DNA of 64,000 bases from Buxus sempervirens. Its lineage: Eukaryota; Streptophyta; Magnoliopsida; Buxales; Buxaceae. Of the stretch, positions 13,571 to 52,312 are shown in pieces. The position numbers and the translations under genes were made by a program. The notes under the pieces are model-generated. The model made no database searches. It worked only from the letters and a program-made list of their open reading frames with translations, and was not told the DNA's origin. The stretch lies in assembly GCA_947561395.2 (NCBI GenBank), contig OX387194.1, positions 31,754,036-31,818,035 of the forward strand, given 5' to 3'. Each line of letters begins with the position of its first letter. The first letter of the stretch is position 1.

Positions 13571-13604
13571 TGCTCCTAGACCAAGAGTCTCGAATCCAGA
13601 ATTA

Positions 13605-19555: not shown

Positions 19556-19697
19556 GTATCCGGTAACTCAGGCCGGATACAAGCAGGCCTTGTCGTATCC
19601 GGTAACAAGTACCGGATACAAACAGTGCTTAACGTATCCGGTACCATGTACCGGATACCTTAAGGCCATTGTGTATCCGATCTGACATACCGGATAC
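19556..19697. repeat. Palindrome cluster 1 (LTR1 U3), four copies
   Basis: 25-bp inverted repeats start at 19,556, 19,595, 19,634 and 19,673, an exact 39-bp step. Consensus GTATCCGGTA-N5-TACCGGATAC. The last copy ends 156 bp upstream of the LTR TATA box. Confidence 0.95.
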
Positions 19698-19853
19698 CTT
19701 AAGTTTGCTCAAAATTAGGGTTTTCCGAGAGCTTTTCACTTTTACCATCATGTCCCTCATTAAATGAGGGGAAATCGCGGAAATAATCTTAGGGTTAAGG
19801 TTGGGGGGGTTCTAGACATTAAGTTGTGTCTACCAATGACCCTAGCCTTTGCC

Positions 19854-19861
19854 TATAAATA
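19854..19861 (+). promoter_or_regulatory. TATA box of LTR1
   Basis: TATAAATA, preceded by CCTTTGCC. The same box is at 40,460-40,467 in LTR2 and, reversed, at 44,257-44,264 in LTR3. Confidence 0.7.
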
Positions 19862-21765
19862 GGAGGCTCCTCCTCAAGCAAATGGCACTCAACTCTTGTT
19901 TTGAATTCTCGCAAAGAAGAACTCCAAGAGAAGAAGAAAACCGCCGCGGAATCGCCTCCAGAACTCAGGTAAGCCTCAACTTTTCTTTTTATTTTCTGTC
20001 TTTACATTCCTAGATCTAGATCTCTTCTTCTACCTTTCTGTAGTGTAAAGCCTTGTTTGTATATGTGGAAATCCTTCCCCGGCTCAAAGTATCTCAAGAC
20101 TCCCCTAGCCGTAAAACGTGAAAGCGGATCTAGGAGAAACGAGACTGGGGATTGACCCTAGTGCTAGAACCCATGTAGCCTAAGGCTTTTGAATGATTGA
20201 AAACCGTTCTATAATCAAAGTACCCTTGATTATCTCGAAGAACCGTGTTTAACGGGGAGAGAGAACAGAGGGAAACGATAATGAAACGGAACCCTAGGCT
20301 ATGCTAGAACCTATCTTGTTGAATCTATATGTATGATATGTGGTTGTATTAATCTTACTTGGTTTTTCACTCTTGCACACATATTACACTTTTTTGGTGA
20401 ATAGGCTCACATTTGGGGATTTATTACATTCATTGTGATAAATCTCCAATAAATGGCCTCAATCAAATTCTGGAGTGTTTTTAAATGTTTTTCAAAGGTT
20501 TTGGATTCATCCCACACGAATCTCACACACTTTATAAATTTTCGGATTTGATTTTCTTCAAAAATGGCCTAACTGGACAGCACCTGTACCCTTACTTCGG
20601 ACGCTCATAACTTCATCGTCCGGATGAATTTTGGAGCGATTCTAGAACCATGGGAAAGGTGAGGCTGTCTAGTTCTTGTCCACCAAATTTCATAAAGTTC
20701 CATCAAACGGATTTTTTACACCTCTCTGTCGAAGTTGAGTGGATAGTTCAGGTTCAAATACAGAACTTGTCACTTCGACGGAGCGCCATGTGTTCGATTT
20801 AAGTCCGATTCGAATGATTTTTGTTTCTATGCACTCCTTTATGAGTCTATTTTCAAATCCAGTTGGTTTCATAATTTTTGGATTCCATTTGAATTATTGG
20901 TAGCCGATTTACTCAGAATTGTCCATTTGTACTTTTCTGGGTAAATCTGTGATCTTCGGGGCCTGTTCGGGAGACCACCCAAGGCACGTCCGAAGGGATT
21001 TTTGTATGAGGCTAGTTTCTTTTGAAAGATGGCCATACAGACTTCAATCACACCAAATTTCGTGGATTTTTATGGAGTGGATTTTTCTAGACAATTTTCC
21101 AAAGTTGCCCACTTGTCACTTTTAAAAATCCCCAGCAGCAACTTCAAAGGAGCATAACTCCTAGGATTTTTATCGGAATGGATTGAAATTTTGCATGGAA
21201 CTCTTATTTACCCTAATCTTTCAAATGGATTTGGTTTGGTTCAATTTAAAATTGGATTTGAATGATTTCAAGGCAAATGGCATACTTTTTACCGAATTTT
21301 CCGGATTTGATTTAACTTGGTTTTGAGCAACTTGAGCTTTGATTTCCATCTTTTGAGATATTCCAGAAATGATATTGACATGAGAGAGGATTTAGAATCC
21401 ATTTAGATCTTCATGTGGAAATATCATACATTGGTCTTTTTTTCAAGGTTTTCTATGATTTTAGCAAGCTTTCTTATTTTTGCATGAACGTACACTTGGC
21501 TACCACTTCGTGTGGATGAATGGGGGTGCCTAACACCTTCCCCCGTTCATAATCTAATCCCCTTACCCATCTCTGGATTTGATTTTCAAGTAGGGTTATT
21601 TTTATCCTAGAATGTTTCTTTTGGCTATTTTTGCTTATTTTTGAATTCTTTGGTGTCCATTCTCACCCCCAAAATTATGAATGGTGGCGACTCTCCCACT
21701 TTTGCGTTGAGCCCGTGTGTTGACGGAGGGATGATCATTCCGATGATTTTCCCATGTCTCACAAC

Positions 21766-21784
21766 TGGCGACTCTGCTGGGGAC
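21766..21784 (+). promoter_or_regulatory. Primer binding site
   Basis: TGGCGACTCTGCTGGGGAC starts two bases after LTR1 ends. TGG at the start pairs with the CCA end of a tRNA; the tRNA species was not determined. Confidence 0.7.
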
Positions 21785-21999
21785 TTGTGGATTTAAGCCA
21801 TTTTGTGTATATTCATGCTTTTTCTTTACTTTTGAATGCTTGCTATTTTGTTTACTTTATTGGTGTATATTGGTATATTCTAAATCTGATTGGGATGCTT
21901 TTAAAATTTGACATTGATAAAGGCATGTGTGTATGGTTGGATTATGCTTAGGATCATGTTTATGGCCTTACCTTGTTGTGCATGCCTACTTGTTTTTTT

Positions 22000-23306: not shown

Positions 23307-23448
23307 ATAACCGGCAACTCAGGCCGGTTAATAACAACTCCATTCATATCCGGTATGTATTTCCGGATACAAAGACATATGCGTGTATCCGGTTAGGGTA
23401 ACCAGATACAATAAGGCATATTCTTATCCGGTATATTATACCGGATAC
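23307..23448. repeat. Palindrome cluster 2 (leader), four copies
   Basis: Copies start at 23,307, 23,346, 23,385 and 23,424, again at 39-bp steps. The first is a variant (TAACCGGC-N-GCCGGTTA); the others keep the TATCCGG arm, with a changed inner arm in the third. Confidence 0.9.
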
Positions 23449-23770
23449 GTTCAAAAAAATGCACAAATTGGCTGTTCAGCCCAAATTTTCAGAATAAAAT
23501 GCCTAAAACACTGTGGATAATCCTTAGACACCCCGAAAAGAACATAAGAAATGTTCCCAAAAATACAAAATCAAAAAAAAAATATATACAAAAAAAAAAA
23601 CAAAAAAGAATAAAATAAAATATTCTTTCAAGATTTAACCTAAGTTTGAAAATCAAAGAGGAAACCAAGGTGTCATATTTTTTTTGACACCAACTCAACT
23701 CAAACATGTGTCAGTCAAACTTTGGAACTTGAAAACTGAGAAAATTCAGCAAATTTGAAGAAAAAAAAAA

Positions 23771-24692
23771 GAAACCTTTGGTTGGTTATTTTTATCAATC
23801 AAATCAAAACATTTGTGGGACACTTGGAAGCCCTAGAATATTCCAAGAAACCTTTGGTTGGTTATTTTTATCAATCAAATCAAACACATTTGTGGGACAC
23901 TTGGAAGCCCTAGAATATTCCAAGAAACCTTTGGTTGGTTATTTTATCAATTAAATCAAAGCATTTGTGGGACACTTGGAAGCCCTAGAATATTCCAAGA
24001 AACCTTTGGTTGGTTATTTTTATCAATCAAATCAAAGCATTTGTGGGACACTTGGAAGCCCTAGAATATTCCAAGAAACCTTTGGTTGGTTATTTTTATC
24101 AATCAAATCAAAACATTTGTGGGAGACTTGGAAGCCCTAGAATATTCCAAGAAACCTTTGGTTGGTTATTTTTATCAATCAAATCAAAACATTTGTGGGA
24201 GACTTGGAAGCCCTAGAATATTCCAAGAAACCTTTGGTTGGTTATTTTTATCAATCAAATCAAAACATTTGTGGGATACTTGGAAGCCCTAGAATATTCC
24301 AAGAAACCTTTGGTTGGTTATTTTTATCAATCAAATCAAAACATTTGTGGGATACTTGGAAGCCCTAGAATATTCCAAGAAACCTTTGGTTGGTTATTTT
24401 TATCAATCAAATCAAAACATTTGTGGGATACTTGGAAGCCCTAGAATATTCCAAGAAACCTTTGGTTGGTTATTTTTATCAATCAAATCAAAACATGTGT
24501 GGGACGCTTGGAAGCCCTAGAATATTCCATGAAAACTTTGGTTGGTTATTTTTATCAATCAAATCAAAAAAAAAAAGAATTTTGGGACCTTTGGAAGCCC
24601 TAGAATATTCCATAAAAACCTTGGTTGGTTATTTTTATCAATCAAAGCAAAAAAAAAAATTTCGGGACCCTTGGAAGCCTTAGAATATTCCA
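23771..24692 (+). repeat. 76-bp minisatellite upstream of gag, about 12 copies
   Basis: Units starting GAAACCTTTGGTTGG begin at 23,771, 23,847, 23,924, 23,999, 24,075, 24,151, 24,227, 24,303, 24,379, 24,455, 24,531 and 24,614. Most are 76 bp and nearly identical; the last two are longer and contain A runs. Since 76 is not a multiple of three, the many short open frames across it are artefacts. Tat/Ogre elements are known to carry such tandem arrays in their untranslated parts. Confidence 0.95.
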
Positions 24693-24906
24693 ACACAAAA
24701 TCAAAACAACAAAAAAAACAAAAAAAAAAATAAAAAATCTGGATTGGTGTTCACCTAACCTACTGGTTTACATATATAGGGGTGTGTTTCAAATTAAATG
24801 GAAGCTGACTTGTGTCTTTGTTTTTCTTATCCAGGTACATTTACTTTCAACCCAGGTGCACTTATTTGCAGTCATTGCTCCCGTGACCAGATCCAAAGCA
24901 AGAGCC

Positions 24907-27900
24907 ATGAATACTAAAGAGAACCAAGCCCAAGCTACTGTCCCCGCTCAGGACTTTACTCAGCTGCAGGAGCAAGTGGCCGGTCTGGCCAAAATGCTGG
25001 GAGATTTACTGGCGGCTCAGGCCCAGCAGGCCCAAGCCCAAAATCAGGCGTCGACTTCTCATCAAGCACCACCACCTCAGGCCTACATTCCACCTCCGGC
25101 TCAGCCCATGCCTGAGCCCATTTCTGAACCAGTCCCTGAACCCATTCTGATCAGGGAAAATATAGCGGAATCTGAGAAAGAACTGGAAAAAGAAAAGGCT
25201 AGGGATGAGATGGAAAAGAAAATGCTGCTGAGGATAGAAAGAATCCAGGCAGAGCTGAAGGAAATGAAGGGGGGAGGCAGCCATGCAGGCACCACCTTTG
25301 AGGACCTGTGCATGTACCCGGATGTATGTCTACCGGCTAAGTTCAGGTGCCCAGACTTCGACAAATTTGATGGCACGGGCTGCCCATTAAGCCATTTGAA
25401 ACTATACTGCGGGGCCCTATGCCAATTTGGCCGGGAAGATGGCATACTGATCCAGCTCTTCCAGAGGAGTCTGACCGGGTCAGCCCTTCGGTGGTTCGCT
25501 ACAGTGGACCATGGAAGGATTAGGAGGTGGAAGGACCTAGCCGACGCTTTCCTGGACCAATACAAGTTCAACTCTGAGATCGTGCCGGACCGGTACGACA
25601 TGATGAGGATGACAAAGGGGAAAGATGAACCAGTACGGCAGTACGCCAAGAGATGGAGAGAGGCCGCCTCCCAGGTCAGGCCACCTATGCAAGAGCCGGA
25701 GATGATCTCCACATTTATGGGCACACTGGGCCAGCCATTCTACAACCATCTGGTGGGTCAGATGACCACCAACTTTGCTGCCCTGGTACAAGTGGCGGAC
25801 CGGATTGAGGAAGGGGTCAGGTCAGGAAGGCTGATAGACTACTCTACTCTGACTGGGCAGTCTGATTCCTCTGCCTCCATGGCCCAGAAGAAAGGGGCCG
25901 GATTTAAAAAGACGGGGGCCCGAAAAGAAGGGGAGGTGAACCTAGTCCAGGCTCCTCCAGCCAAGAAGCCACTTCATGTGAACATCTCGGCACCCCAACA
26001 GGCCCAGCAGGCCCAGCAGTCGTACCAGACCCCGCTGAATGTCAACTTCTCTCCCTCTGTGCCAGCTAACATAAGGAGGACTTTTTCCAAGGAAGAGAGG
26101 GAGGCTTGGTTCGCAGCAAGGAAGAACCGAGTCTTCACTCCTCTCCCGATATCTCTGTCCCAACTACTGCCAACCCTGCTGAAAGGGGAATACTTGACTC
26201 TGAAGGAGCCTAACCCAAATGCCCCGAAGGGGAGGAATTTTGATCCGGCAGCCACCTGTGACTTCCACATGGGTGCACCAGGGCACTCTACAGATAACTG
26301 TTGGGTATTGAAGCATGTGGTCCAGGACCTGTTGGACCAGAAGGCTTTGGTCTTTAACACTGCTGCACCCGCCCCATCGGGAAATGATATTGGGCAGAAC
26401 CCTCTGCCGTACCACAATGGGGCAGGCCCATCCAACTCCATCACAGCCATATCCACCACGAGAAGGGCCTTTGACCCATCTCAGCTTATAGCCCCCATGG
26501 GGACTACAGTCCAGGTCCGATTTTTCCCAGAAGAGGAAGAAGAGGAGATCAACATGGTCTCCCAAAAAAACAATACAGCTGCTGAGGACATAAGTTCCTC
26601 TTTAAACTGGGTCTCATCTCTTATGACCCAGATGAATACTGCAAGGCCCACGTTGGTCTTCAATTGCAGTCCACCCACTTATTCCCCATCCAAGCCGTCT
26701 AAGGCTCCACTGGTCATCAACCTTGACCCCACCACTGCTTCCATCACTTCTTCTGTCCCCCCGAAATCTAAACTTCAGCCCTTGGTTGTAAATGTGCAGC
26801 CAGCCCAAACTATCCCTAAACCGGCCCATACATCCCGGTCCAAACTCCAGCCACTAGTGGTTAACATCCCTAAACTAGCCTATTCTGAGGCCGCTGTACC
26901 ATGGAATTACAGCGAGGGAATCACGGCTACGGTTCCAGTGGTCAAGGACCAGAACCAGGAGGAGGTGAACCTCATGACGAGGTCGGGGAGATGTGCGACA
27001 GAAGCAGAAAAAGAAAAAATAGAAAAAGAAAATGAAAAAAGAAAACAAAAAGGAAAAAATAAAGTGGGAGAAGACACCCCCCAGGGTGCAGAAAATGAAG
27101 CAGCCGATCTCATAAAAATAATAAAGAAAAGTGAATTCAATCTTGTGGATCAACTGAACAAGGTCCCAGCCCAGATTTCAATACTGGGTCTTTTGCTGAA
27201 TTCTGAAAAGCACAGGGATGCATTGTTAAGGGTGCTACAGAGTGCACACGTATCCCAGACCATTGATCCAGACCAGCTTGGCAAAATGGTTGGTCAAATC
27301 TTGTCACATAATGTGATAAGTTTCTCAGAGGGTGAGATCAGCCCAGGTGGGTGTTATCATGTGGACCCTTTGCACATCACTGTGCTTTGTAAGGGCTGCA
27401 TGATTGCACGGGTTTTAATTGACAACGGGTCAGCGTTAAACGTTTGCCCGTTAATCACTTTTACCAAGCTGGGTCTGGACCAGTCAAGGATCAAACGAAA
27501 TGGGCGGATACTGAAGGCTTTGGATAGCTCCAAGACCCACTCCTTAGGGGAGATTGAACTGCCGGTCACAATTGGGCCGAATATCTTTAACATCACATTT
27601 GAGGTGATGGATATACCCCCAGCTTTCAATCTGCTCCTAGGAAAGCCGTGGATACATTCGGCTAGGGCAATACCATCCACGCTCCACCAGAGGGTGAAAT
27701 ATATAAGAGGGCAAAGGGTGATAACATTCCTAGCCGAAAACTTGGTGCCGCCCATCGTGTCACCTGATGTACCCTTAATCAATGTGGACCTAACTGTCGA
27801 CAAGATTGCATTCCACTCATTTCAATTTGAGGCGGTCAATTACATACCTGGGGGGTGTGAGAAAAAGAAGGAAAAGGGGACCACTGCAGAAAAAATGGTC

Positions 27901-28125
27901 AAGAAAGTGATGGAGAAATACCACTTTCACCCGGGGAAAGGCCTGGGGATCAATCTGCAGGGGATGGTGGAGCCAATCACGGCTAAGAAACTGATTCCCA
28001 AGGTAGGGTTGGGCTTCAAGCCCAGAGGCTGGAGAAGAATGAAACATGAAGAAGGGGAGAGCAGGAGCAGAGGAAAACTCCCGCATCTGAGGGTGAACTT
28101 CCCAAAACCCTCCTATATAATCTAA
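24907..28125 (+). mobile_element. Tat gag and protease region
   Basis: Likely gag start is ATG at 24,907 (MNTKENQAQA), after candidate splice acceptors (TTATCCAG, TTTGCAG) at 24,835-24,880. Early residues are glutamine-rich (AAQAQQAQAQNQ), then a charged coiled stretch. The capsid block FDGTGCPLSHLKLYCGAL-F...LRWFATVDHGRIRRWKDL lies at about 25,350-25,800. A CDFHMGAPGHSTDNC zinc-knuckle-like motif is near 26,260. The protease lies near 27,370-27,720 with ARVLIDNGSALNVCP (aspartate active-site type). A G-patch-like GKGLGINLQGM segment closes the region near 27,940. Gag builds the particle; protease trims the polyprotein. Confidence 0.85.
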
Positions 28126-31100
28126 ATTTCTCCTCCCATGAACCAGTCCGAGTCTCCTTACCGAAACATTAACCCATTTCAAAAACCTTTTGTTTCGGCC
28201 CTGCAACCCTACAACCCATCTCCAATACTGGAAGCAGTGGATGGGCCTGGGCCACAACCAGAGCAGCGGACAGACTTCTCTGAGGATATTGGGGCCTTTT
28301 TCGCCATGACTGAAGGCGAAAAGACTGATGGTGACATGGACCTGCCGTTCATTGACTGGACCGCAGTGAAGATTCCAGAAGAGGTCATTTCTGGATTGGG
28401 CCCCGTAGCAGAAAAGGGCAGTACCCACCCGGTGATGATGGCATCGGATGCTGGGCTTGAGGAGCAGGCTTTCCCCATTTCCCCTGCTCCCCAAAATTTT
28501 GTAATGAACAATTGGGAGGAAACTCCCCTTACCTTTGAAGCGGCGTTAGTTCGGCAAACTGACGCGGCTTCCAAAAAAAAACTCCAATAGTGGAATGCCA
28601 TTTCCCTGAAGGTTCTAATGGGCCTTCGTCTTCAGGGGAATTATGTTTAGAAGGCCCACAAAAAACCCAAAAAGATTTTTCTATTTTTTCTAGAAAATTT
28701 AAATTTTTCAAAAAGGTCCAAACCATTTATGAGCCATATAATCAGACCGAATTGGACCAGGTTGAATATGACTTCGACTTCGAGCTCGACTTTGACCTTA
28801 TGGGGATCGAAGAAGAGATCGAGGCCGAAGAAGAAGACGTTCCAAAAGAAATTGAATACCAATTGGAACGTCATGAAAAGGGGGTCCAACCTAATATTGA
28901 GGAGACCATATCCATAAATCTTGGGACCAAAGAGGACCCAAAAATTGTGAAAATCGGGTCATGCTTGTCTGATGTGCAGAAAAATGAAATGTCACAGTTC
29001 TTGGCAGATTACAAGGATGTGTTTGCTTGGTCATATCGGGACATGCCGGGGTTGGACACTGACATGGTGGTGCACAAGTTGCCAATTTTGCCAGGGGTTA
29101 AGCCGATTAAGCAGAAGCTGAGAAGATTGAAGCCTGAATGGACCTTGAGGGTCAAGGACGAAGTGGTCAAACAATTTCAAGCCGGATTTTTGGCAGTCTC
29201 TACATACCCAGAGTGGCTCGCAAACATAGTGCCAGTACCAAACAAGGACGGGAAGGTCCGAATGTGCGTGGATTATAGAGACTTGAACAAGGCAAGCCCA
29301 AAGGACGATTTTCCGCTTCAACACATCGACATTCTGGTCGATAATACTGCGGTACACAGCCTGTTCTCTTTCATGGATGGGTTCTCGGGGTACAATCAAA
29401 TCAAGATGGCTAAGGAGGATCAGGAGAAAACAGCATTTATCACACCTTGGGGCACATTCCACTATACAGTCATGCCATTTGGGCTTAAAAACGCTGGGGC
29501 AACATACCAGCGGGCCATGACTGCACTATTCCATGACATGATCCACAAGGAGATGGAGGTCTATGTGGACGATATGATTACCAAATCATGCAAAGAGGAG
29601 GACCACTTGATCAATCTGAAGAAAGTGTTTGATCGGCTCAGGAAGTACAGTCTACGGCTTAACCCGGCTAAGTGCGTCTTTGGGGCTACATCAGGGAAAT
29701 TACTGGGGTTTATAGTGAGCCGAAGAGGAATCGAAATTGACCCGGCAAAAGCCAAGGCCATAATTGAAATGCTAGCACCCAGAACTGAGAAGGAGGTTCG
29801 TGGTTTTCTCGGGAGAATTCAATACATAAGCCGGTTCATAGCACAGCTCACTGCTATCTGTGAACCAATTTTCAAACTTTTGAGGAAAGATAACCCGACG
29901 GTCTGGAATGAGCACTGCCAGCAGGCATTTGACACAATAAAGAGGTATTTGCTGAACCACCTGTGCTAGTGCCACCAACTCCAGGAAGACCACTGATCCT
30001 GTACTTGTTAGTGTTGGAAACGTCAATGGGATGTGTCTTGGGGCAACATGATGAGACTGGTAGAAAAGAAAGGGCAATTTACTATCTGAGTAAAAAATTC
30101 ACGGAATATGAAGCCAAATACTCACCATTGGAAAAGACTTGTTGTGCTCTAGTGTGGGCCACTCAGAGGCTAAGGCATTATTTCCTTAGTCACTCCACAC
30201 TATTGATATCCCGGATGGACCCGCTGAAGTATTTATTTGAGAAACCGGCACTGACTGGCAGGACGGCAAAGTGGCAACTGCTACTGTCCGAGTTTGACCT
30301 CACATACATCACCCAGAAGGCGATCAAGGGTCAAGCCATAGCTGATCACCTGGCTACACATCCTCTACCAGAATATCAACCCTTGAAGACCAACTTTCCA
30401 GATGAGGCAATTCTGTACACTGAAGAGGAGGACAGTGAGAGTTCTTGGCAGATGTTCTTTGATGGGGTCGCCAATATGAATGGGAACGGAATAGGGGCAG
30501 TCTTGGTTAAACCAGATGGTTCACACATCCCGATTGCAGTAAAGCTGAGATTCCAGTGCACCAATAACATAGCAGAATATGAGGCATGCATAATTGGATT
30601 GCAAGCAGCCATGGATCATGGAGTAGATGAACTTGACGTATACGGGGATTCGAGTCTTATCATCTTCCAAACAACTGGGGAGTGGAAAACCAAGGATCAC
30701 AAATTGATCCCCTATCACCAGTATTTGGAAGAAATAAGCACAAATTTCACTCGAATTTCCTTCAACTATATGCCAAGGGCCAAGAATCAGTTCGCAGATG
30801 CTCTAGCAACCTTGGCTTCAATGGTCAGCATACCAGAAGGAGTAGACATCAGACCGCTGGAAATTGAGGTTAGAGATGAACCGGCTTACTGTCTCGTTCT
30901 AGAGGGAGCACCAGAAGAAGAAGCACCATGGTTTCAAGATATCAAGAATTTCTTGAATAATCGGAGTCTGCCAGAAAATGCCACTGCTACTGAGAAGAGG
31001 ACAATACAGAGATTGGCTGGTCAATTTCTACTAAGTGGTGGACATGTGTACAAGAGGTCGCATAACGATATTCTGCTAAGATGTGTTGCCAAGGCTGAAT

Positions 31101-32180
31101 CAGAAAGGCTGATCGAGACCGTACATGGAGGAGTCTGTGGGCCCCATATGAGTGGGCACATGCTGGCTAAGAAGATCTTGAGGTTGGGATATTACTCGAC
31201 GACCATGGAACATGATTGCTGTATACATGTCAGGAGGTGCCACCAATGTCAGATATATGCAGATAACAAGCATGCACCCCCAGGTGAGCTGCACAACATG
31301 ACATCACCCTGGCCCTTCTCTATGTGGGGCATAGATGTCATCGGCATGATCTCCCCTAAGGCATCGAATGGACATAGATTCATCCTGGTGGCGATTGACT
31401 ATTTCACTAAGTGGGTGGAAGCAGCTTCATATGCGAACATCACAAGCAACCATGTTATTAAATTTTTGAAGCACAATATCATTTGTCGCTATGGACTGCC
31501 AAGTGCCATAGTATCAGACAACGCTTCAAATATTAAGAACAAGGACATGAAGAAGATGTGTGAGCAGTTTCAGATCATCCACCACAAGTCAGCTCCATAC
31601 AGGCCAAAAATGAACGGGGCAGTAGAAGCAGCAAATAAGAATATAAAGAAAATCATTCAAAAGATGGTAGTAAGTTACAAGGATTGGCACGAAATGCTGC
31701 CACTTGCTCTACATGCCTACAGAACCTCGATCCGGACCTCAACTGGGGCAACCCCGTACTCCCTAGTCTATGAGATGGAAGCAGTCTTGCCCGTAGAAGT
31801 AGAGATCCCCTCACTCCGAGTGCTCATGGAAGCAGAACTAGAAGAAGTCGAATGGGTCCAGTCGAGACATGATCAACTTAACCTGATAGAAGAAAAGCGG
31901 TTGAAAGCGCTTTGCCATGGACAATTGTACCAGAAGAGAATGGCCTGGGCTTACAATAAGAAAGTGAGGCCCAGAACTTTCCAAGAAGGAAACTTAGTGC
32001 TAAAGAAAATCTTACCATTTTTGGAAGATCCTCGTGGTAAGTTCAAGCCCAATTAGGAAGGCCCATATGTCGTCAAGAAAGTCCTGTCAGGGGGTGCACT
32101 CATCTTAGCAGAAATGGATGGGTCAGATTTTCCTGAGCCCATTAACTCTGATGCGGTAAAAAGGTATTTTCCTTGAGTGA
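28126..32180 (+). mobile_element. Tat pol region: RT, two RNase H domains, integrase
   Basis: A spacer (28,138-28,900) is followed by RT at about 29,020-29,760 with VRMCVDYRDLNKASPKDDFPL and EVYVDDMI (catalytic YVDD). A first RNase H, EAKYSPLEKTCCALVWATQ, lies near 30,110, and a second, archaeal-type one at about 30,430-30,830 (FDGVANMNGNGIGAV, NNIAEYEACIIGL, GDSSLI). The integrase lies at about 31,210-32,050: zinc-finger half HVRRCHQCQ, then the DDE core (GIDVIGMI, DNASN, MNGAVEAANK). A dual RNase H is typical of the Tat lineage. The region holds a few breaks and is called a recent fossil; no single product is proposed. Confidence 0.85.
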
Positions 32181-33173: not shown

Positions 33174-34809
33174 CTAAGCTACAATGACTCTTGAAGCCCC
33201 CTCTGCAGCGGGATCACTCAGGAAGGAAATGACCTCATCTGAAAGGGCCTGCTTGATCCTCATACTCCTGAGGCTGGCCAAAGTAGCCTGGTACTTCTGC
33301 CGGATCATACGGACCTCGAAGCAACGGGCCTGCCTCTGCTCCTCCAGCTTCTCTTCCACGGCAATACGGCGTGAGATCTGCTCCTCAAGCTGCCTCTCCA
33401 AATAAGTGCCCTGTATCCTGAGCTCCTGGGCCTCCCGTACCCATATCTGCTGAAGCCGCTTATGAGAAGCCCGCTCAGACTCTAGAATGTCCTCATAGGT
33501 GGGAGCCAAGACTACAGGAGGATCTTCGGGTACCGGGACCTGAGTCTGTATCTGTTCCTTGATCCAGAAGAGATAATCCTTCACATGGGCTTCTGAGAAG
33601 ACTGGACCATGCATGAAGCGGACATAGGACCACTCCTTCATCAACCAGGCATTCAGCTTCATAGAAAGGGGCCCAAGACGATCCTCATATCCACATGGGA
33701 TGATAATCCCCTGGGTCGCACGGAACTGACGAAGGACCCGCAGAGGAAGATACAACACTGCATGCTTCAGGCCCGCTAGGATCAAAAAGTTGCGGTCACG
33801 GAAGCTAATCACGGTCGCTGCGTTGGGCTGATAAGTGCTAGGCCATCTCACCTGGTCCTCCTGAAGTGAGCCCAAGAAAGTGAACCAGCCCTGTTTGCCC
33901 CCTGGAATATTGGGGCACCCCCTGTTGCTCATCAACAAGGGGACTTTTAGACTCGGGAAGAAGTGTCGATTAATCTCTTCAATCTGGCTCAAATGATCAA
34001 GTAACCAAAGCTGCAAAGGAGAAGGGATATTTCAGTATATTGTAAAAAAAAAAAAAAAAAGCCAAAAAGCAAGAAAAAAAAAAAGAAATTTTTTTTTTTA
34101 CCTGCAGGATCTGGGCACATGCTAAGAAGCGTTTTGACTTCCTGTTGTAGCAGTCGGTCAATGCCTGATACATCCCAGCCAAAATCATGGGGGCCAACCT
34201 CTCCCGCTCCCTAACCTGGCATATCACTGAAATCAAGGCCAAGTCCACCTCATCATCATCCCGTGGGAAAAGCAACTGATTGACCACTATCAGGGTCAAG
34301 GCGTTGAACCGGGCCTCCTTATCTTCCCCCCTCAAAAGCTTCTCAGTCAAAAAAGCCTTAGATAGGGTCAAAAGGGTGTCAGAATCCCCCAAGTCCTTCT
34401 TCCCTATGCCCAAAAAAGTAGAAGCTTCCTTCTTGTAACTGGGCCTAAGAGGTGGATTCACCACCTTCTCATCAAACCTCAAGCCCAAGATAGTTTCCAC
34501 CTCCTCAATGGTTGGGGTCATCTCATGGGTCCCAAAACGGAACAAGTTGAGGTCAGGAACCCAATGACCAATCATGGCCTCTATAATCTCCCACCTGAAG
34601 GGAACTTTGGGAATGAGCAGGGTATGGCCTAGATTAGTAGAACCCCATCTCCTCTCCTCATCTAGGGTCATAGAGTTAACCCACCTTGTGTAAAAGGAAT
34701 CCACGGGGTTGTACCTAGTAAGATTTGGGGGTTTTGATCTAAAAGGTTGTTTTGCAGGGGAGGCAGTGTGGACAGACAATAATGGGGCAGAAGATGATCC
34801 GGATTCCAT
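33174..34809 (-). mobile_element. Antisense gene A of the Tat element, PMD-like
   Basis: Two long open segments on the minus strand, about 34,809-34,100 and 34,014-33,174, are separated by a T/A-rich gap of about 90 bp with consensus intron edges (CAG|GTAAAA ... TTTGCAG|). The likely start is ATG at 34,809 (MESGSSSAP). The first segment has the block HWVPDLNLFRFG-EMTPTIEEVETILGL, characteristic of plant-mobile-domain (PMD) and related transposon proteins; the second carries FPSLKVPLL and a Glu/Arg/Gln-rich coiled coil to the end. A TATA box (34,921-34,927, minus) and five palindromes lie just upstream. Its role is unknown; PMD proteins of the MAIN/MAIL1 group act in silencing and genome stability. 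It looks whole. Confidence 0.7.
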
Positions 34810-34920
34810 TGGATGTGATGGGAGCAAGCTAGAACTCAAGAGAAGGAGGAAAAAGGCGAAAAAGGGGGTTTCTAAACTCAAAAACTCGTAAAAAATGCTC
34901 AAATCCCGAGGCTGGTTGCA

Positions 34921-34927
34921 TTTATAG
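34921..34927 (-). promoter_or_regulatory. TATA box of antisense gene A
   Basis: Minus-strand TATAAAT, about 110 bp upstream of the likely ATG and directly next to palindrome cluster 3. Confidence 0.5.
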
Positions 34928-34938
34928 CATCTTTTAAT

Positions 34939-35120
34939 GTATCCGGTAACTCAGACCGGATACAAAAGGGTTTATTAATATCCGGTTAAGTATACCGGAT
35001 ACAAAAGAGGCTATGAGTATCCGGTATAAGTATACCGGATACAAAAGAGGCTATGAGTATCCGGTATATTATACCGGATACAAAGACCAATCAATGTATC
35101 CGGTATGTCAGACCGGATAC
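34939..35120. repeat. Palindrome cluster 3 (upstream of gene A), five copies
   Basis: Copies start at 34,939, 34,978, 35,017, 35,057 and 35,096 (steps 39, 39, 40, 39). Inner arms here include GTATAAGTATAC and GTATATTATAC. The cluster occupies the promoter position of the antisense gene. Confidence 0.95.
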
Positions 35121-35320
35121 AAAGAAAAACAGCAAAAAAAGAGCCAAGGATGAAAAATCTGAATTTTTTACCTGTTTTACCTGTGTACAAGTCATAATTG
35201 CATAAATTTAAAAACAAAAGATGTGCAAGACAGGAGAGAATGAATCAAAGTTTTTTTCATATATATATGCAAGTTTTTGTACAATGATAATGGAAAAGAC
35301 ATAGAAATCCTAATCTACTG

Positions 35321-38028
35321 CTACTGTGCAGGATCATCCACACGGCCTCGGCCACGTCCACCTCTACGGCCCCTCCCTCGAAGCGCTCTGCCCCTAGAGT
35401 AGGCAAGAATACGCTCGGCTGCATGGCGAGGATGCCGACCCACCACCTGCTGGAGCTGATACTCCAAGCAATACTCCTCGATGTCTGGGGGCAGAGCAGG
35501 AGCAGAATCTGGGGAGGAGACCTCTGGCTCAATAGCAACCGGCTCAACAGGACCCTCAGCCATAGCAGGCTCTGCTCCCGCAGCTCCAGAAGGCCCGGCA
35601 TCAGAAGAAGGGCCAGGATCAGAAATATCTGTACCAAATGGGAAGAAATCAAGAATTGGGATACTAAAATGAATAAAAGAGAAGAAACTAAGGAAAACAT
35701 ACCAGCAGGCACTATGGGATCCGGATCCACTGGGTCAGCAGCAGGGGCCTCCTCTGACTCAGGAACCATCACTGGAGCATCACCAAGATCAGCAGCTGTG
35801 ACATCCACAGAATCCGTAGCCCGAACAGGAGACGGGTCAGGAATGAGGAAATCAGGCTCGAAGGCAGCATCCTGATCTGGGACCGGGCCCTGCACAAGGT
35901 AAACAAGCATATCAGAATAGCAGAAACAGGAAAATGAAAGAAATAAAAATATGAGAAGGCCAGATACCTGTCTAGCCTGAAGCTCAGCAACCAAGGCCTC
36001 CAGCTTCCTGATCCGGGCATCCCGCTGGGCCACGACGGCATCGTGCTCAACGATCAGATCATCGATCGCAGCCCGCTGGCTCTCGAACCGGTCCCGAATG
36101 GTGTTCAGCTCGTGTACCTGCCAACAAGAACAAAAGCATGGTCAGAAATGCATAAGGAAGGAAAAGGGGATGAAAATGGGAAGAGTACAAGGCTTACCGT
36201 GTCCTCGTGGATCCGGATACGGATCCCGCCGATCTCTATCACCCCGGCACGAGTGGGTCGATCCATCAAGCATCCAATAGATACCCTCTGGAACCAATCG
36301 TCATAATCTCCGGCTACTGTGAGCCCCTCTGCATCCAGGAAATGATCGAACTGATCCACGTCGAAGCCGGGAAGGAGAGTATCGGGACCCACAGGAGGAG
36401 GCGGAACGGGGATGCGAAGTGCGCCCGTGTGCTGGAAGTACAAACGCTCTCCTAAGTACATCACCCTACCAAGCTTCCCAAGGAAGCACTGGTAGGGCTG
36501 ACGTCGGAGATCTCTCTCAAAAGCATCCTGTACTGCCATCTCACGGGCAACTCCGACATCCACGTCATCTGGACGGGATAGAATGAGCTGCAAAGAAGCA
36601 AAGTGGTCAGATACAGTCAAGAGGCAGAAAAGTAAAAGGAAAAGATAGAAGGCTTACATCAGATCAGCGGGCACGGTCTAAGTGCACCCGGGCAGTACGA
36701 GGCTAGCTCCTATCAGCATCTCGAACCTGGGCCGACCATCGCAGGGCCACAGGGAAATCCGCAACCTCAGGAACCGGGGAGGGGCGGAAGAAGGTCATAT
36801 AGGTGTACATGAACACCTAGCAAAAGAAAAATCAGTCAAGAAAAGATAAAGCCTAAGGAATTAAACCAGACAGATGAATGCAATACCTGTAGAATCTGCC
36901 AGAAGAACCGGCTGCTGACTCCATCACCCCTCGGGGATGCCAGGCCTCGAACCGCTCGGCACAACCCGGCTAGGATGGTCCCATAGATGAGCCGACCCCA
37001 TGCTAGCTGACGGGTCTGATGGAAATCTCTCAAGGCGTCCAAGAAAAGTGGGCTGACACCGGTAGTATCCTCCGGGAAGAAGCAGCTCCCCAACATCAGC
37101 AAGAATACGTGCCGGAAGATAGGAACAAAAGCAGCATCCTACACAGCCACAGTCTTGTGCCTCCCCTCAAAATGTCGAGCCAGACTATCCCGCAGCCAAC
37201 TAATGGAGAGCCGGCCACTCCGCCCATCCCAAGCAGTAGGTGGCAGGGCCTGATATCCCAGAAGGAGGCCGATGTCCTCCGCGGAAGGTCGCTCCAAGAT
37301 GATGGTCCGCCCAGTCAATGGAATACCGGTGATCATCACAAAATCCGAGGGGCGGATCCCCAGCTCCACGTCCGGCAGATGGAATGACTGAGTCTCTGGG
37401 AAATACCTCTCCATCATGGCGAAGATGAGCGGACGATCAGCTCTGAAGGATGGGATGCTAAGAAAATGATCCAGGTGGCACCTCCCAAACTCCCGCCTGA
37501 GTGTCGGAGAAAGCGACTGAGCTAACTCACTAAATCTGCCCCAGCTACCTCGCAGATGAGAGGAGTGGTACGGAAGCGGCACATCTGCCCTGATGCACAT
37601 GGAAGGGTGGCTATACAAGCCACGGAGGAGCTCTGTATCGTGAACAGAGGCCCTCAACTCCTCAGAGACCCCTGCCAGAGCCACAGCAATCCCCTCCTGA
37701 GCCGTATCTCTGGCTCTGCCTCGGCCTCTGCCACGGCCTCTCTCGCCCTCAGGAGCCTGATCCGGAACTCTGCCTCGGCCTCGACCACGAGCGGGTGCAA
37801 CCACGGGCTAAATTTCAAAGGAACAGCGTGAAGATTTGTGTAGAAAGGAGAATAGAAGAAAGAAAAGAGAGAAAGGGCTTGAAAGTCTACCTCAGCAGAG
37901 CTCTCTCGAGAGTCGCCTAATGGCTCGGACAGGGTGGCACTAGAACTAGTCTCAATCCGAGCTCGAGAAGAAGAAGGCCGGTCGGCCGAGTCAACCTCCT
38001 CACGAACACGGGAACGACTCCTAGCCAT
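35321..38028 (-). mobile_element. Antisense gene B of the Tat element, PMD-like, multi-exon
   Basis: Open segments on the minus strand, separated by short gaps with intron-like edges, begin at ATG 38,028 (MARSRSRVREE, after TTGTAG). They show an Arg/Gly-rich stretch; a PMD-type block near 37,160-37,480 (SFRADRPLIFAMMERYFPE, SFHLPDVELGI, FVMITGIPLTGRTI); a second PMD-type block near 36,890-37,100; a coiled segment near 35,970-36,110 (RDARIRKLEALVAELQARQ); an acidic Pro/Asp/Glu stretch; and an RGRGRRGGRGRGR tail. PMD relatives are nuclear; the RG-rich tail suggests nucleic-acid binding. It appears lightly broken (one or two places). Function unknown. Confidence 0.65.
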
Positions 38029-38029
38029 C

Positions 38030-39465
38030 TACAACAGGGAAGTGTTTTATAAATTTCAGTTCAAATCTATCTGGAATCCTACTTTGCTCAGTTCAAATTG
38101 ATCAAAAAATTTCACTTTGATTGTATAGGTTCCAACTCTGGTTCATCAGGAATCTTATATGATTTTTCAGGAATTGTGTTTTAGTTCAAAGTTTTTTAGA
38201 AAATATTCCTATATTATTCTAAAACATTTTGTTTACAAGGCCTAATATCTGATAATTTACTGCAGGATCGCTACATGGGTGCAAAAGCAAAGGGTCTGAG
38301 CTAAATCAAGGATTGGAATAACTGTGGAGTCCAACCATAAAATGGTCCTGGCAGTAGAATACCAAGTGGATTAAGAGGAATAAACCCCCAGAGATTCAAG
38401 TCAAGGAAAATATAGCATGGTATGGACATCAGAAAAATTGCAGCATAGCATCAACAGCATACCATAAACCAAGCAATATTAAAGAATTGCTGGCAGTCAG
38501 TTCACAGGAATTGGCAACATCAAGTTGGAAGCCAAATCAAATTAGAATAGCATAAAAGTAATTCATTCGGTTAGAATTTCTCATTAGCGGGAATTCCAAT
38601 CAAATCCGAGCAGAAATCAAAACATGGCAATAGCATGGATTATCAGCAATTACAAATTCCAGCTCAAGCTTAGCAATGAATGAACAAATTTGAGCAATTG
38701 CTTGCAAAAGAACCAAATCCAACCAACAGTCAAAGCAAATTGTACAGCATGGTATTTACAGATTGAAAGCAACCAATTCAGTCGGAATTCCTCATCAGCA
38801 ACGATTCCAATCAAGGCAAGCAAGGGTCATGGCATCCCAAGGAAAAATTGAAGCATTGCAATTTGTACAAGGCAGTTGCAAGATTTGATGACCAACACCA
38901 AGCTCAAACTTAGCAAAAAATTCAGGAATTCAGGCAATTGGCAGCAATTCAGAATTGGCAGAAATTCAAGCTCAAGCTTGGGAGAAATTCAGAAATTCAA
39001 GCAATGGGCAATTTACCACAATCAAGAGAAATCCAAGGCATAGCAATTCAGAATCATGGCTTAACAGCCAAGGCAATGACACAGCAAACATTCGGCTTCT
39101 AACATTAAAGGAGTCAATACATATTTGAAACAGCAAACTAAAAGGAGAAGAATGCATGCTAAGATGCTCACTGACCTGGTCGGATTGAGTCGGGTTGGAG
39201 AAGAACAGGCGAATGGACAAGAAAGCCGAAAAAAATCGAGCTAGGGCTCGACTGTTGCCTTGAATGTGCGAACAGTGAAGTCGCCGGAGTTGCAGACTCT
39301 CGCCGGCAGCAATAGGGGGCACCGGAGTTGCTGGAGATCGCCGGAGAATGATGAAGAGCCGTCGGGTGAAGAAGAAGAAGGAGATGGCCGGTCTGAGTAA
39401 TCGGAGCAAGAAGAAAAGAAATGAAAAGTCGCGGTCGCGGTCGCGCGCGACTTAAGTAAACCTGG
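38030..39465 (-). other. Probable 5' UTR exon and first intron of gene B
   Basis: On the minus strand a CT-rich, Pro/Ser-coding stretch of about 39,180-39,430 ends at CCGACCAG|GTCAGTGAG, a good splice donor; about 1.15 kb later GTTGTAG precedes the ATG at 38,028. The 38,380-39,010 part repeats words such as AGCAATT, CAAATCAA and AATTCAG in a loosely periodic way. Inferred from splice-site shape only. Confidence 0.4.
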
Positions 39466-39466
39466 A

Positions 39467-39530
39467 GGATCCGGATACTCAGGCCGGATACCCGCAGACC
39501 CTTGATTATCCGGATATATATACCGGATAC
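39467..39530. repeat. Palindrome cluster 4 (upstream of gene B), two copies
   Basis: Copies start at 39,467 and 39,506, again 39 bp apart. Together they sit immediately 5' of the putative leader exon of antisense gene B. Confidence 0.9.
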
Positions 39531-39533
39531 CAA

Positions 39534-39662: not shown

Positions 39663-39689
39663 AAACTTGTGCTATAATTCTTACTATTT

Positions 39690-39930: not shown

Positions 39931-40057
39931 GCTTTTGGCAAATTTCCACCCGAAAATTGTTTTCTACAGAAATTGAATTGAACCGAGCAAACCATGCTCA
40001 AGGGAATGCAATTTGGGCTTGTCTACTCTTTGCAGCTCACTGCTTCGCAGCTCCCGC

Positions 40058-40070
40058 AAAGAGGGGCAGT
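40058..40070 (+). promoter_or_regulatory. Polypurine tract
   Basis: AAAGAGGGGCAG lies directly before LTR2 (TGTAGACACC at 40,071), the usual place for priming plus-strand cDNA synthesis. Confidence 0.75.
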
Positions 40071-42369
40071 TGTAGACACCCCAAATTGCACAAGCAATCA
40101 TAAAAAATCACTATCTCCTTGAAAGCCAGCACAGAAATTGAAGAAAATGAATTTTTACCTGTATCCGGTAACTCAGGCCGGATACAAGCAGACCTTGTCG
40201 TATCCGGTAACAAGTACCGGATACAAACAGTGCTTAACGTATCCGGTACCATGTACCGGATACCTTAAGGCCATTGTGTATCCGGTCTGACATACCGGAT
40301 ACCTTAAGTTTGCTCAAAATTAGGGTTTTCCGAGAGCTTTTCACTTTTACCATCATGTCCCTCATTAAATGAGGGGAAATCGCGGAAATAACCTTAGGGT
40401 TAAGGTTGGGGGGGGTTCTAGACATTAAGTTGTGTCTACCAATGACCCTAGCCTTTGCCTATAAATAGGAGGCTCCTCCTCAAGCAAATGGAACTCAACT
40501 CTTGTTTTGAATTCTCGCAAAGAAGAACTCCAAGAGAAGAAGAAAACCGCCGCGGAATCGCCTCCAGAACTCAGGTAAGCCTCAACTTTTCTTTTTATTT
40601 TCTGTCTTTACATTCCTAGATCTAGATCTCTTCTTCTACCTTTCTGTAGTGTAAAGCCTTGTTTGTATGTGTGGAAATCCTTCCCCGGCTCAAAGTATCT
40701 CAAGACTCCCCTAGCCGTAAAACGTGAAGGCGGATCTAGGAGAAACGAGACTGGGGATTGACCCTAGTGCTAGAACCCATGTAGCCTAAGGCTTTTGAAT
40801 GATTGAAAACCGTTCTATAATCAAAGTACCCTTGATTATCTCGAAGAACCGTGTTTAACGGGGAGAGAGAACATAGGGAAACGATAATGGAACGGAACCC
40901 TAGGCTATGCTAGAACCTATCTTGTTGAATCTATATGCATGATATGTGGTTGTATTAATCTTACTTGGTTTTTCACTCTTGCACACATATTACACTTTTT
41001 TGGTGAATAGGCTCACATTTGGGGATTTATTACATTCATTGTGATAAATCTCCAATAACTGGCCTCAATCAAATTCTGGAGTGTTTTTAAATGTTTTTCA
41101 AAGGTTTTGGATTCATCCCACACGAATCTCACACACTTTATAAATTTTCGGATTTGATTTTCTTCAAAAATGGACTAACTGGACAGCACCTGTACCCTTA
41201 CTTCGGACGCTCATAACTTCATCGTCCGGATGAATTTTGGAGCGATTCCAGAACCATGGGAAAGGTGAGGCTGTCTAGTTCATGTCCACCAAATTTCATA
41301 AAGTTCCATCAAACGGATTTTTTACACCTCTCTGTCGAAGTTGAGTGGACAGTTCAGGTTCAAATACAGAACTTGTCACTTCGACGGAGCGCCATGTGTT
41401 CGATTTAAGTCCGATTCGAATGATTTTTGTTTCTATGCACTCCTTTATGAGTCAATTTTCAAATTCAGTTGGTTTCATAATTTTTAGATTCCATTTGAAT
41501 TATTGGTAGCCGATTTACTCAGAACTGTTCATTTGTACTTTTCTGGGTAAATCTGTGATCTTCGGGGCCTGTTCGGGAGACCACCCAAGGCACGTCCGAA
41601 GGGATTTTTGTATGAGGCTTGTTTCTTTTAAAAGATGGCCATACAGACTTCAATCACACCAAATTTCGTGGATTTTTATGGAGTGGAGTTTTCTAGACAA
41701 TTTTCCAAAGTTGCCCACTTGTCACTTTTAAAAATCCCCAGCAGCAACTTCAAAGGAGCATAACTCCTAGGATTTTTATCGGAATGGATTGAAATTTTGC
41801 ATGGAACTCTTATTTACCCTAATCTTTCAAATGGATTTGGTTTGGTTCAATTTAAAATTGGATTTGAATGATTTCAAGGCAAATGACATACTTTTTACCG
41901 AATTTTCCGGATTTGATTTAACTTGGTTTTGAGCAACTTGAGCTTTGATTTCCATCTTTTGAGATATTCCAGAAATGATATTGACATGAGAGAGGATCTA
42001 GAATCCATTTAGATCTTCATGTGGAAATATCATACATTGGTCTTTTTTTCAAGGTTTTCTATGATTTTAGCAAGCTTTCTTATTTTTGCATGAACGTACA
42101 CTTGGCTACCACTTCGTGTGGATGAATGGGGGTGCCTAACACCTTCCCCCGTTCATAATCTAATCCCCTTACCCATCTCTGGATTTGATTTTCAAGTAGG
42201 GTTATTTTTATCCTAGAATGTTTCTTTTGGCTATTTTTGCTTATTTTTGAATTCTTTGGTGTCCATTCTCACCCCCAAAATTATGAATGGTGGCGACTCT
42301 CCCACTTTTGCGTTGAGCCCGTGTGTTGACGGAGGGATGATCATTCCGGTGATTTTCCCATGTCTCACA
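40071..42369 (+). repeat. LTR2 of the Tat element
   Basis: Same ends, length and internal parts as LTR1. Palindromes at 40,161-40,302 and the TATA box at 40,460-40,467. It stops at TGTCTCACA, followed by only ACTT before the reversed LTR3. Confidence 0.9.
40161..40302. repeat. Palindrome cluster 5 (LTR2 U3), four copies
   Basis: Copies start at 40,161, 40,200, 40,239 and 40,278, 39 bp apart, as in LTR1. Confidence 0.95.
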
Positions 42370-42373
42370 ACTT

Positions 42374-44662
42374 TGTGAGACATGGGAAAATCACCGGTGT
42401 GATCATCCCTCCGTCAACACACGGGTTCAACGCAAAAATGAGAGAGTCGCCACCATTCATGATTTTGGGGTGAGAATGGACACCAAAGAGTTCAAAATAA
42501 GCAAAAAGTGCTAAAAGACAAATTCTAGGGTAAAAATAACCCTATTTGAAAATCAAGTCCAGAGATGGGTAAGGGGATTAGATTATGAACGGGGGAAGGT
42601 GTTAGGCACCCCCATTCATCCACACGAAGTGGTTGCCAAGTGTATGTTCATGCAAAAAATAGAAAGCTTGCTAAAATCATAGAAAACCTTGAAAATGGAC
42701 GAATGTATGATATTTTCACATGAAGATCTAAATGTATTTTAGATCCTCTCTTATGTCAATATCATTTCTGGAACATCTCAAAAGATGGAAATCAAAGCAC
42801 AAGTTGTTAAAACCAAGTTTGGGCAAATCCGGGGAATTTGGTAAAAAGTATGCCATTTGCCTTAAAATCATTCAAATCCCATTTTAAATCAAACCAAACT
42901 AAATTCATTTGAAAGATTACAGTAAATAAGGGTCTCATGCAAAATTTCACTTCATTCCGATAAAAATCCTAGGAGTTATGCTCCTTTGAAGTTGCTGCTG
43001 GGGATTTTTAAAAGTGATGAGTGGGCAACTTTGGAAAATTGTCTAGAAAAATCCACTACATAAAAATCCACGAAATTTGGTGTGATTGAAGTCTGTATGG
43101 CCATCTTTCAACAGAAACTAGCCTCATACAAAAATCCCTTCGGATGTGCCTTGGGTGGTCTCCCGAACAGGCCCCGAAGATCACAGATTTACCCAAAAAA
43201 GTACAAATGAACAGTTCTGAGTAAATCGGCTACCAATAATTCAAATGGAATCCAAAAATTATGAAACCAACTGGATTTGAAAATAGACTCATAAAGGAGT
43301 GCATAGAAACAAAAATCATTCGAATCGGACTTAAATCGAACACATGGCGCTCCGTCGAAGTGACAAGTTCTGTATTTGAACCTGAACTGTCCACTCAACT
43401 TCGACAGAGAGGTGTCAAAAATCCGCTTGATAGAAATTTGGTGGACATAAACTAGACAGCCTCACCTTTCCCATGGTTCTGGAATCGCCCCAAAATTCAT
43501 CCGGATGATGAAGTTATGGGCGTCCGAAGTAAGGGTACAGGTGCTGTCAAGTTAAGCCATTCTTGAAGAAAAACCAAATCCGAAAATTGATAAAAATGTG
43601 TGATTCGTGCAAGATGAACACAAATACTTTAAAAATCATCCAAAAGACATTCCAGAATTGATTGAGGCCATTTATTTGAGATTTATCACAATAAATGCAA
43701 TAAACCCCAAATATGAGCCTATCCCGCCAAAATAGTGATATGTATGTGCAAGTGTAAAAAAACCAAACGAGATCAATAGCATGCATACATATTCATCCAA
43801 ATAGGGTTCTAAGATAGCCTAGGGTTCTGTTCCATTATCGTTTCCCTCTGTTCTCTCTCCCCGTTAAACACGGTTCTTCAAGATAATCAAGGGTACTTTG
43901 AATATGGAACGGTTTACAATCAATCAAAAAGGCCTTATGCTACATGGGTTCTAGCACTAGGGTCAATCCCCAGTCTCGTTTCTCCTAGATCCGCCTTCAC
44001 GTTTTACGGCTAGGGGAGTCTTGAGATACTTTGAGCCGGGGAAGGATTTCCACACATACAAACAAGGCTTTACACTACAGAAAGGTAGAAGAAGAGATCT
44101 AGATCTAGGAATGTAAAGACAGAAAATAAAAAGAAAAGTTGAGGCTTACCTGAGTTCCGGAGGTGATTCCGCAGCGGTTTTCTTCTTCTCTTGGAGTTCT
44201 TCTTTGCGAGAATTCAAAACAAGAGTTGAGTTCCATTTGCTTGAGGAGGAGCCTCCTATTTATAGGCAAAGGCTAGGGTCATTGGTAGACACAACTTAAT
44301 GTCTAGAACCCCCCCCCCCCCCCCCAACCTTAACCCTAAGGTTATTTCCGTGATTTCCCCTCATTTAATGAGGGACATGATGGTAAAAGTGAAAAGCTCT
44401 TGGAAAACCCTAATTTTGAGCAAACTTAAGGTATCCGGTATGTCAGACCGGATACACAATGGCCTTAAGGTATCTGGTACATGGTACCGGATACGTTAAG
44501 CACTGTTTGTATCCGGTACTTGTTACCGGATACGACAAAGCCTGCTTGTATCCGGCCTGAGTTACCGGATACAGGTAAAAATTCATTTTCTTCAATTTCT
44601 GTGCTGGCTTTCAAGGAGATAGTGATTTTTGATGATTGCTTGTGCAATTTGGGGTGTCTACA
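42374..44662 (-). repeat. LTR3, inverted, joined tail-to-tail to LTR2
   Basis: Starts TGTGAGACATG, ends GGTGTCTACA on the plus strand, so it is a full LTR in reverse. Its outer 850 bp or so are nearly identical to LTR1/2, whereas the inner 1.4 kb is visibly more diverged (about 10% by eye, worst in the middle). It contains an 18-bp C run near 44,310. Confidence 0.9.
44431..44572. repeat. Palindrome cluster 6 (LTR3 U3), four copies
   Basis: Copies start at 44,431, 44,470, 44,509 and 44,548, 39 bp apart, mirror image of clusters 1 and 5. Confidence 0.95.
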
Positions 44663-52302: not shown

Positions 52303-52312
52303 CCCCCCCCAC

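Follow-up and report, generated by a model that had tools for sequence, protein, structure and literature searches.

VANC proteins, the regulators of Arabidopsis VANDAL21 elements, bind tandem motifs in the non-coding regions of their own elements (PMC5735166) and remove methylation there (PMC5735166, PMC10398659). Among retrotransposons, clades of the Plant Mobile Domain (PMD) termed PMD-A are encoded by Gypsy elements (PMC5418596), and a PMD was reported in 57% of Ogre elements (PMC6317226). PMD genes and antisense genes of large Ty3/gypsy elements are described as widespread, and their function is called unknown (PMC7264820, PMC9289625, PMC11963269). We analyzed a stretch of 64,000 bp from Buxus sempervirens (GenBank assembly GCA_947561395.2, contig OX387194.1, positions 31,754,036 to 31,818,035 of the forward strand), hereafter the window, in which a large long terminal repeat (LTR) retrotransposon carries arrays of a 25-bp palindrome in its LTRs, in its leader, and beside two antisense genes. 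The best explanation overall, to which we give a probability of roughly 0.5 based on the sequence, is that the palindromes serve as operators or enhancers in DNA and are read by a trans-acting factor, which the element itself most plausibly encodes.

The arrays are a real and orderly feature. The palindrome has the form GTATCCGG-N9-CCGGATAC and occurs in 23 copies in the window, arranged in six clusters that are given here with the core starts of their copies; none is assigned a strand.

19556–19697: U3 palindrome cluster of the 5′ LTR; four copies (core starts 19557, 19596, 19635, 19674), the fourth with one core base changed from G to A.
23307–23448: leader palindrome cluster; four copies (23308, 23347, 23386, 23425), that at 23308 with a symmetric double arm change.
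34939–35120: palindrome cluster of antisense gene 1; five copies (34940, 34979, 35018 with a 10-bp loop, 35058, 35097).
39467–39530: palindrome cluster upstream of antisense gene 2; two copies (39468, 39507).
40161–40302: U3 palindrome cluster of the 3′ LTR; four copies (40162, 40201, 40240, 40279).
44431–44572: U3 palindrome cluster of an inverted LTR; four copies (44432, 44471, 44510, 44549), one with the core CTGG for CCGG (plus strand).

All 23 palindromes and all six intervals listed in the original prediction were thus present, and their number lies far above that in shuffled sequence. Allowing up to three mismatches, the pattern TATCCGG-N9-CCGGATA had 24 matches in the 64 kb, 22 of which fell inside the six clusters; the other two (at 10898 and 33284) were isolated and carried three mismatches each. 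In 100 shuffles of the window, the same pattern had a mean of 1.08 matches and a maximum of 4. The loop is 9 bp long in 22 of the 23 palindromes, and the single copy with a 10-bp loop (35018–35041) escaped this fixed-loop pattern. When a matrix of the 16 arm positions was applied, all 22 copies with 9-bp loops scored 18.5 to 31.2, against a maximum of 10.7 anywhere else in the window; 14 of the scored copies went into building the matrix, which therefore favors them, but the gap in score is still wide. The half-site TATCCGG was found 20 times on the given strand of the 64 kb, and 19 of these occurrences were in clusters. A motif-free scan of the window for perfect 8-bp inverted repeats (arms with at least three G or C, loops of 3–13) recovered five of the six clusters, missing the two-copy cluster at 39467, and all palindrome neighbors less than 60 bp apart fell in these clusters.

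The predicted step of 39 bp, once 40 bp, was also seen (16 and 1 of 17 neighbor steps, respectively). The single 40-bp step arises because the extra base sits in the 10-bp loop, and the gap between neighboring palindromes stays constant. Two short repeats at 14154–14227, with steps of 36 and 39 bp (AGATCGTACCTAGC... and GATCGGAGTAGGG...), are unrelated to the palindrome. The six clusters proposed to lie across one retroelement exist, but only four are independent: 12 of the 23 palindromes belong to LTRs, of which there are three copies. The first cluster (19556–19697) recurs in the other two as the fifth and the sixth (40161–40302 and 44431–44572), and the sixth belongs to a third, inverted LTR rather than to a regular component of a single element. 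Counting the LTR once leaves 15 independent palindromes: four in U3, four in the leader, five at antisense gene 1, and two at antisense gene 2.

The positions of these clusters can be compared with those of the following TATA boxes and genes.

19854–19860, plus strand: TATAAAT, TATA box of the LTR, 156 bp past the end of the U3 cluster.
34920–34926, minus strand: TATA box (TATAAAT) for antisense gene 1; the cluster of this gene ends 12 bp upstream of it.
33174–34809, minus strand: antisense gene 1; exon 1 at 34809–34102 (DUF7745/PMD), a GT-AG intron, and exon 2 at 34010–33174; both exons are open, with splice sites placed by eye.
35319–38028, minus strand: antisense gene 2; multiple exons by eye, with the PMD in consecutive pieces of the same frame (37142–37807 and 36836–37138).

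The cluster upstream of antisense gene 2 borders the region of the presumed gene start. In a placement test, the probability that at least three of the four clusters lie within three 500-bp promoter windows was P = 0.0007, for windows that were drawn after the data had been seen and one of which depends on where antisense gene 2 is presumed to start. The unit whose loop contains ACTCAG forms the plus-strand left end of both the U3 array and the antisense gene 1 array. Because it lies at the same end although the two promoters are oppositely oriented, the arrays may work in either orientation. The same site and promoter positions would be explained by a host transcription factor whose sites the element exploits, in which case the antisense genes would share the enhancer and the element would supply no binder. 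Plant LTRs often carry repeated boxes for host factors in U3, which is in line with this explanation. However, the 16 arm positions have no close match elsewhere in the 64 kb and are more specific than usual host boxes, and the site also flanks both of the regulator-like genes that the element encodes. We regard a host-factor enhancer as possible but fairly unlikely.

The letters of the arms are far better conserved than the sequence around them. Among the 11 units that have a following spacer, from four clusters, mean pairwise identity in the arms was 0.92, compared with 0.42 in the loops and 0.39 in the spacers, and between clusters the values were 0.91, 0.40, and 0.37, respectively. A rank test (P = 1e-7) is descriptive, as it assumes independent positions and was applied to arms selected for their conservation. 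The identity values support selection on a sequence-specific site, in line with the selection on a binding site or a hairpin suggested in the original prediction. All 11 independent core-to-core gaps measure 16 bp, although the spacers depart from the consensus at 66 of their 154 letters. Given the ratio of indels to substitutions in the LTRs (12 gap events per 150 mismatches), the spacers should have gained about 5.3 indels (P about 0.005), a rough and generous estimate because the star count tallies inherited changes more than once.

The conserved arms and spacing bear directly on a neutral origin, in which a 39-bp repeat arose by slippage and then spread from one part of the element to others, leaving palindromes without a function. 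The spacers are weakly alike between units and clusters, and common descent by duplication is therefore likely. Moreover, tandem arrays are present in about half of the recently active elements of a Retand survey, where their origin and function are called unknown (PMC11963269). Yet loops and spacers have diverged down to about 40% identity while the arms remain at 92% and spacer length is unchanged, and neutral decay would not spare arms that bear CpG. A purely neutral spread is thus very improbable, and the palindrome arrays are probably functional.

The CpG dinucleotides could themselves be the reason for the conservation if the CCGG cores were kept as CG/CHG methylation sites, acting as a sensor or trap that silences or times the element. 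CpG was enriched over the surroundings in all four clusters (Fisher P = 6e-6 to 0.009); the leader cluster, for instance, has 8 CpG against 13 TpG plus CpA inside and 21 against 451 outside. All three changes in CCGG cores (19674, 23386, 44471) are G to A or C to T relative to the consensus, as would arise from methylated cytosine. Of the 26 LTR differences for which the inverted LTR allowed polarization, 16 are G>A or C>T. However, the non-CpG letters GTAT and ATAC are conserved too, and the CpG enrichment is partly forced by the motif itself, which makes a role as methylation sites alone quite improbable.

The prediction had left open whether the arms form a binding site or a hairpin. Hairpins could act in the genomic RNA, in packaging, dimerization, stability, or 3′-end formation. 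Indeed, the four independent clusters folded into long paired structures on both strands in a prediction made without a shuffle control, and the full-length RNA includes the leader, antisense-promoter, and 3′ U3 copies. In contrast, the 5′ U3 and antisense gene 1 copies lie upstream of their own TATA boxes and hence, by position, outside those transcripts. Among the 15 units, only one clear compensated arm pair (23308) was seen. Pairing of the loop flanks was not significantly above that in shuffles (31 of 60, P = 0.053; other sets, P = 0.09 to 0.15). Because the letters are kept rather than the pairing alone, protein recognition of DNA is favored over RNA structure. An RNA function is improbable, whereas the palindromes are likely DNA-binding operators, judging from the pattern of conservation.

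How such operators might work can be outlined from their form. Each 25-bp unit would consist of two inverted GTATCCGG half-sites about 16 bp apart that are read by a sequence-specific dimer, a dimeric protein being suggested because the dyad is made of two 8-bp half-sites. The fixed gap between dyads suggests either that adjoining dimers are in contact or mere inheritance by duplication. Because rows of two to five units lie in the leader as well as beside the LTR promoter and each antisense gene, a single trans-acting factor could switch all of the element together. That the palindromes are bound by a product of the element itself has, in our estimate, close to an even chance. The candidate is the product of antisense gene 1, with its PMD/DUF7745 domain and a predicted long C-terminal helix that may serve in dimerization. 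This protein would target both its own promoter and that of the genomic RNA, either as a trans-activator or as an anti-silencer resembling VANC. By analogy with VANC, the outcome might be anti-silencing rather than plain activation or repression, which we consider doubtful. The more extended scenario, in which antisense PMD proteins dimerize through their helices, bind the arrays at the element promoters, and lift silencing in trans, would constitute a VANC-like system of independent origin in class I elements and would reveal the ancestral function of the PMD; we offer this as a speculative and rather unlikely possibility.

Within antisense gene 1, exon 1 matched DUF7745 (E = 2.1e-17) and PMD (E = 1.6e-12), above the Pfam cut-off, and exon 2 showed a weak continuation of DUF7745 (E = 0.038) below it. 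In the structure model of exon 2, a long C-terminal helix spans residues 172–249. The predicted local distance difference test (pLDDT) score was 50.0 overall, and the long helix alone was confident, with means of 81–96 for 10-residue blocks over residues 191–240. Such a helix could be what a dimerizing coiled coil would have. In antisense gene 2, the two PMD pieces (E = 9.1e-8 and 0.0074) are both below the Pfam cut-off and are adjacent in frame and in the profile. The PMD region of this gene is split by an in-frame TAG at 37139–37141; because of this stop codon antisense gene 2 looks broken in the present copy, whereas antisense gene 1 is open in its two exons. Four other pieces of antisense gene 2 tried against Pfam yielded nothing under E = 0.02. 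Only PMD and DUF7745 reached E = 0.01 among the antisense gene pieces tried, and DUF1985 and DUF287 were not among their matches. A sequence search of the PDB with one PMD piece per antisense gene gave no match.

Several observations weigh against operators read by an element-encoded factor. A host factor would account for these sites as well. The model of exon 1, which carries the PMD match, was unusable (mean pLDDT 37.9), so that DNA binding by the PMD has no support here, a point that also counts in favor of the host-factor enhancer. That the palindrome is the ‘DOWN’ motif of PMD-dependent promoters was considered and found unsupported, the instance at MORC1, CATGCAGTTT, being unlike it (PMC9899485). 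Of the likely promoters, at every one of which clusters had been predicted, the LTR and antisense gene 1 have their TATA boxes and antisense gene 2 its presumed start. For the latter gene, however, no TATA word was found in 39200–39466, and the leader cluster has no convincing promoter, the only TATATA words lying 134 and 1324 bp downstream; the second of these is about 130 bp ahead of the gag ATG. Finally, the inverted LTR has diverged by no more than about 1–2% in its U3, too little to show constraint there.

A diverged relative at 13,110-13,570 had been said in the original prediction to lack the clusters. Its best local alignment (13071–13478) covers only 40454–40850 of the LTR, from the TATA box onwards. 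The alignment omits the region of the U3 cluster and cannot show its absence, and we rejected this relative as a negative control. The plus strand of 13600–14600, aligned with the LTR, scored below shuffles.

The element that carries the arrays has the following parts, together with the additional LTR that adjoins it.

19461–19465, plus strand: AGACG, left copy of the 5-bp target-site duplication.
19466–21763, plus strand: 5′ LTR (TGTAGACACC...CTCACA), 98.8% identical to the 3′ LTR.
24907–28125, plus strand: gag open reading frame (ORF), with Retrotrans_gag and G-patch.
28800–29969, plus strand: reverse transcriptase ORF (RVT_1).
30026–32056, plus strand: ORF with RNase H, then a further RNase H-like domain (RVT_3) and integrase; its frame differs from that of the reverse transcriptase ORF.
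40071–42369, plus strand: 3′ LTR.
42374–44662, minus strand: third LTR, inverted and tail to tail with the 3′ LTR via ACTT; 92.5% identical to the 5′ LTR, with mosaic divergence.
44663–44667, plus strand: AGACG, right copy of the target-site duplication.

The element measures about 22.9 kb, with LTRs of 2.3 kb. The domain order of Ty3/gypsy is present, with RVT_1 in one ORF and RT_RNaseH, RVT_3, and rve successively in the next. In the latter, RT_RNaseH occupies residues 1–90 and the additional RVT_3 residues 145–263 (E = 3.1e-21); this RVT_3 would be the additional archaeal-type RNase H (aRH) that is diagnostic of Tat. In Tat/Ogre elements, a short intron-like region parts the gag-prot ORF from the pol ORF; between the end of the present gag ORF (28125) and the start of the reverse transcriptase ORF (28800) lies a further ORF, and the frame changes later. 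The RNase H/integrase and reverse transcriptase ORFs do not share a frame, so pol looks broken in this copy. Two bases past the end of the 5′ LTR sits TGGCGACTCTGCTGGGGA, a candidate primer-binding site that may resemble tRNA-Arg, to which the primer-binding site of Tat/Ogre elements is complementary. Placed by its domains, the host looks like a Tat/Ogre-type Ty3/gypsy retrotransposon. We place it in or near Ogre because of the PMD frequency in that lineage (57%; PMC6317226) and because Gypsy-encoded PMD clades have been described (PMC5418596). The leader also contains a 76-bp tandem repeat (23769–24693; 12 copies, 95% matches) between the palindrome cluster and gag.

As a whole, the interval 19461–44667 is a composite of the 5′ LTR, the internal part, the 3′ LTR, ACTT, and the third LTR, inverted tail to tail. 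The identical 5-bp AGACG flanks the composite on either side, and each of its outer ends is a U3 end. This arrangement fits two cDNAs that were linked through their U5 ends and integrated together, the second of which would later have been reduced to a solo LTR. Compared with the 3′ LTR, the inverted LTR is about 1% different over the first ~700 bp; beyond this stretch it has up to 34 mismatches per 100, then 1–4, and then ~4–12, a mosaic that suggests recombination between LTR subfamilies. This LTR, the sole second family member compared, keeps all four palindromes, one with a changed core. We rejected it as evidence of selection on U3, as it is mosaic and its first ~700 bp are nearly identical. 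Just outside the composite lies an inverted pair of ~490 bp (44703–45184 and 48237–48718; 75% alike). Farther downstream, a run of about 60 C at 52303–52362 (93% matches) is possibly an assembly artefact, and ORFs at 57569–62290 resemble, by eye from their translation, a non-LTR (LINE-like) retroelement.

Searches beyond the window returned few matches. The palindrome motif had 0 matches in viral contigs, and in prokaryote genomes it gave isolated matches in only three stretches, from bacterial metagenome-assembled genomes. In the viral contigs, we also found no relatives of antisense gene 1 exon 1 (one pattern match, unconfirmed) or of the reverse transcriptase ORF (seven pattern matches, none confirmed). 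The first 690 bases of the 3′ LTR had no match in plasmids. Word searches of the open-licence literature, a scope that excludes most subscription papers, showed no report of these palindromes among the entries and passages listed; the letter matches listed (20 of 321) look, by title, like constructs, primers, and other organisms.

Motif arrays in transposon control regions are a known kind of feature, and it is their setting and form that appear new here within the literature searched. Operator-like sites common to the LTR promoter and the antisense genes pose a testable question, namely whether an antisense protein binds the palindrome. If this is true, the antisense genes would regulate their own element, and the host silencing proteins MAIN and MAIL1 would be related to a regulator of transposon origin.

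In its overall layout, the element can be compared with four described systems. Like the Ogre lineage of Tat Ty3/gypsy elements, it is very large, with LTRs of 2.3 kb, and has an extra RNase H-like domain between RNase H and integrase as well as PMD-bearing extra ORFs; unlike in that lineage, the pol frames are broken in the present copy, and palindromic arrays are not described in the excerpts of PMC6317226. The antisense genes of Retand and Grande elements (Transposase_28) likewise lie between pol and the 3′ LTR and have been suggested to be element regulators (PMC11963269, PMC7264820), but the domain here is PMD/DUF7745, and operator-like arrays beside promoters are not described in the excerpts of these two papers. 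MAIN and MAIL1 share the Pfam domain PMD and are linked to a promoter motif (PMC7156037), whereas they are host genes, and the MORC1 instance of that motif differs from the palindrome (PMC9899485). A further parallel is the sequence-specific anti-silencing of VANC and VANDAL21 in Arabidopsis Mutator-like elements, which also have regulatory genes of their own; there, too, short motifs are concentrated in the element and form tandem repeats in its non-coding sequence, upstream regions among them. In contrast to VANDAL21, a DNA transposon, the host is an LTR retrotransposon, its motif is a 25-bp dyad rather than the 9-base, single-orientation YAGTATTAY, and its antisense proteins match PMD/DUF7745 and not the DUF1985/DUF287 named in the legend of a VANC figure.

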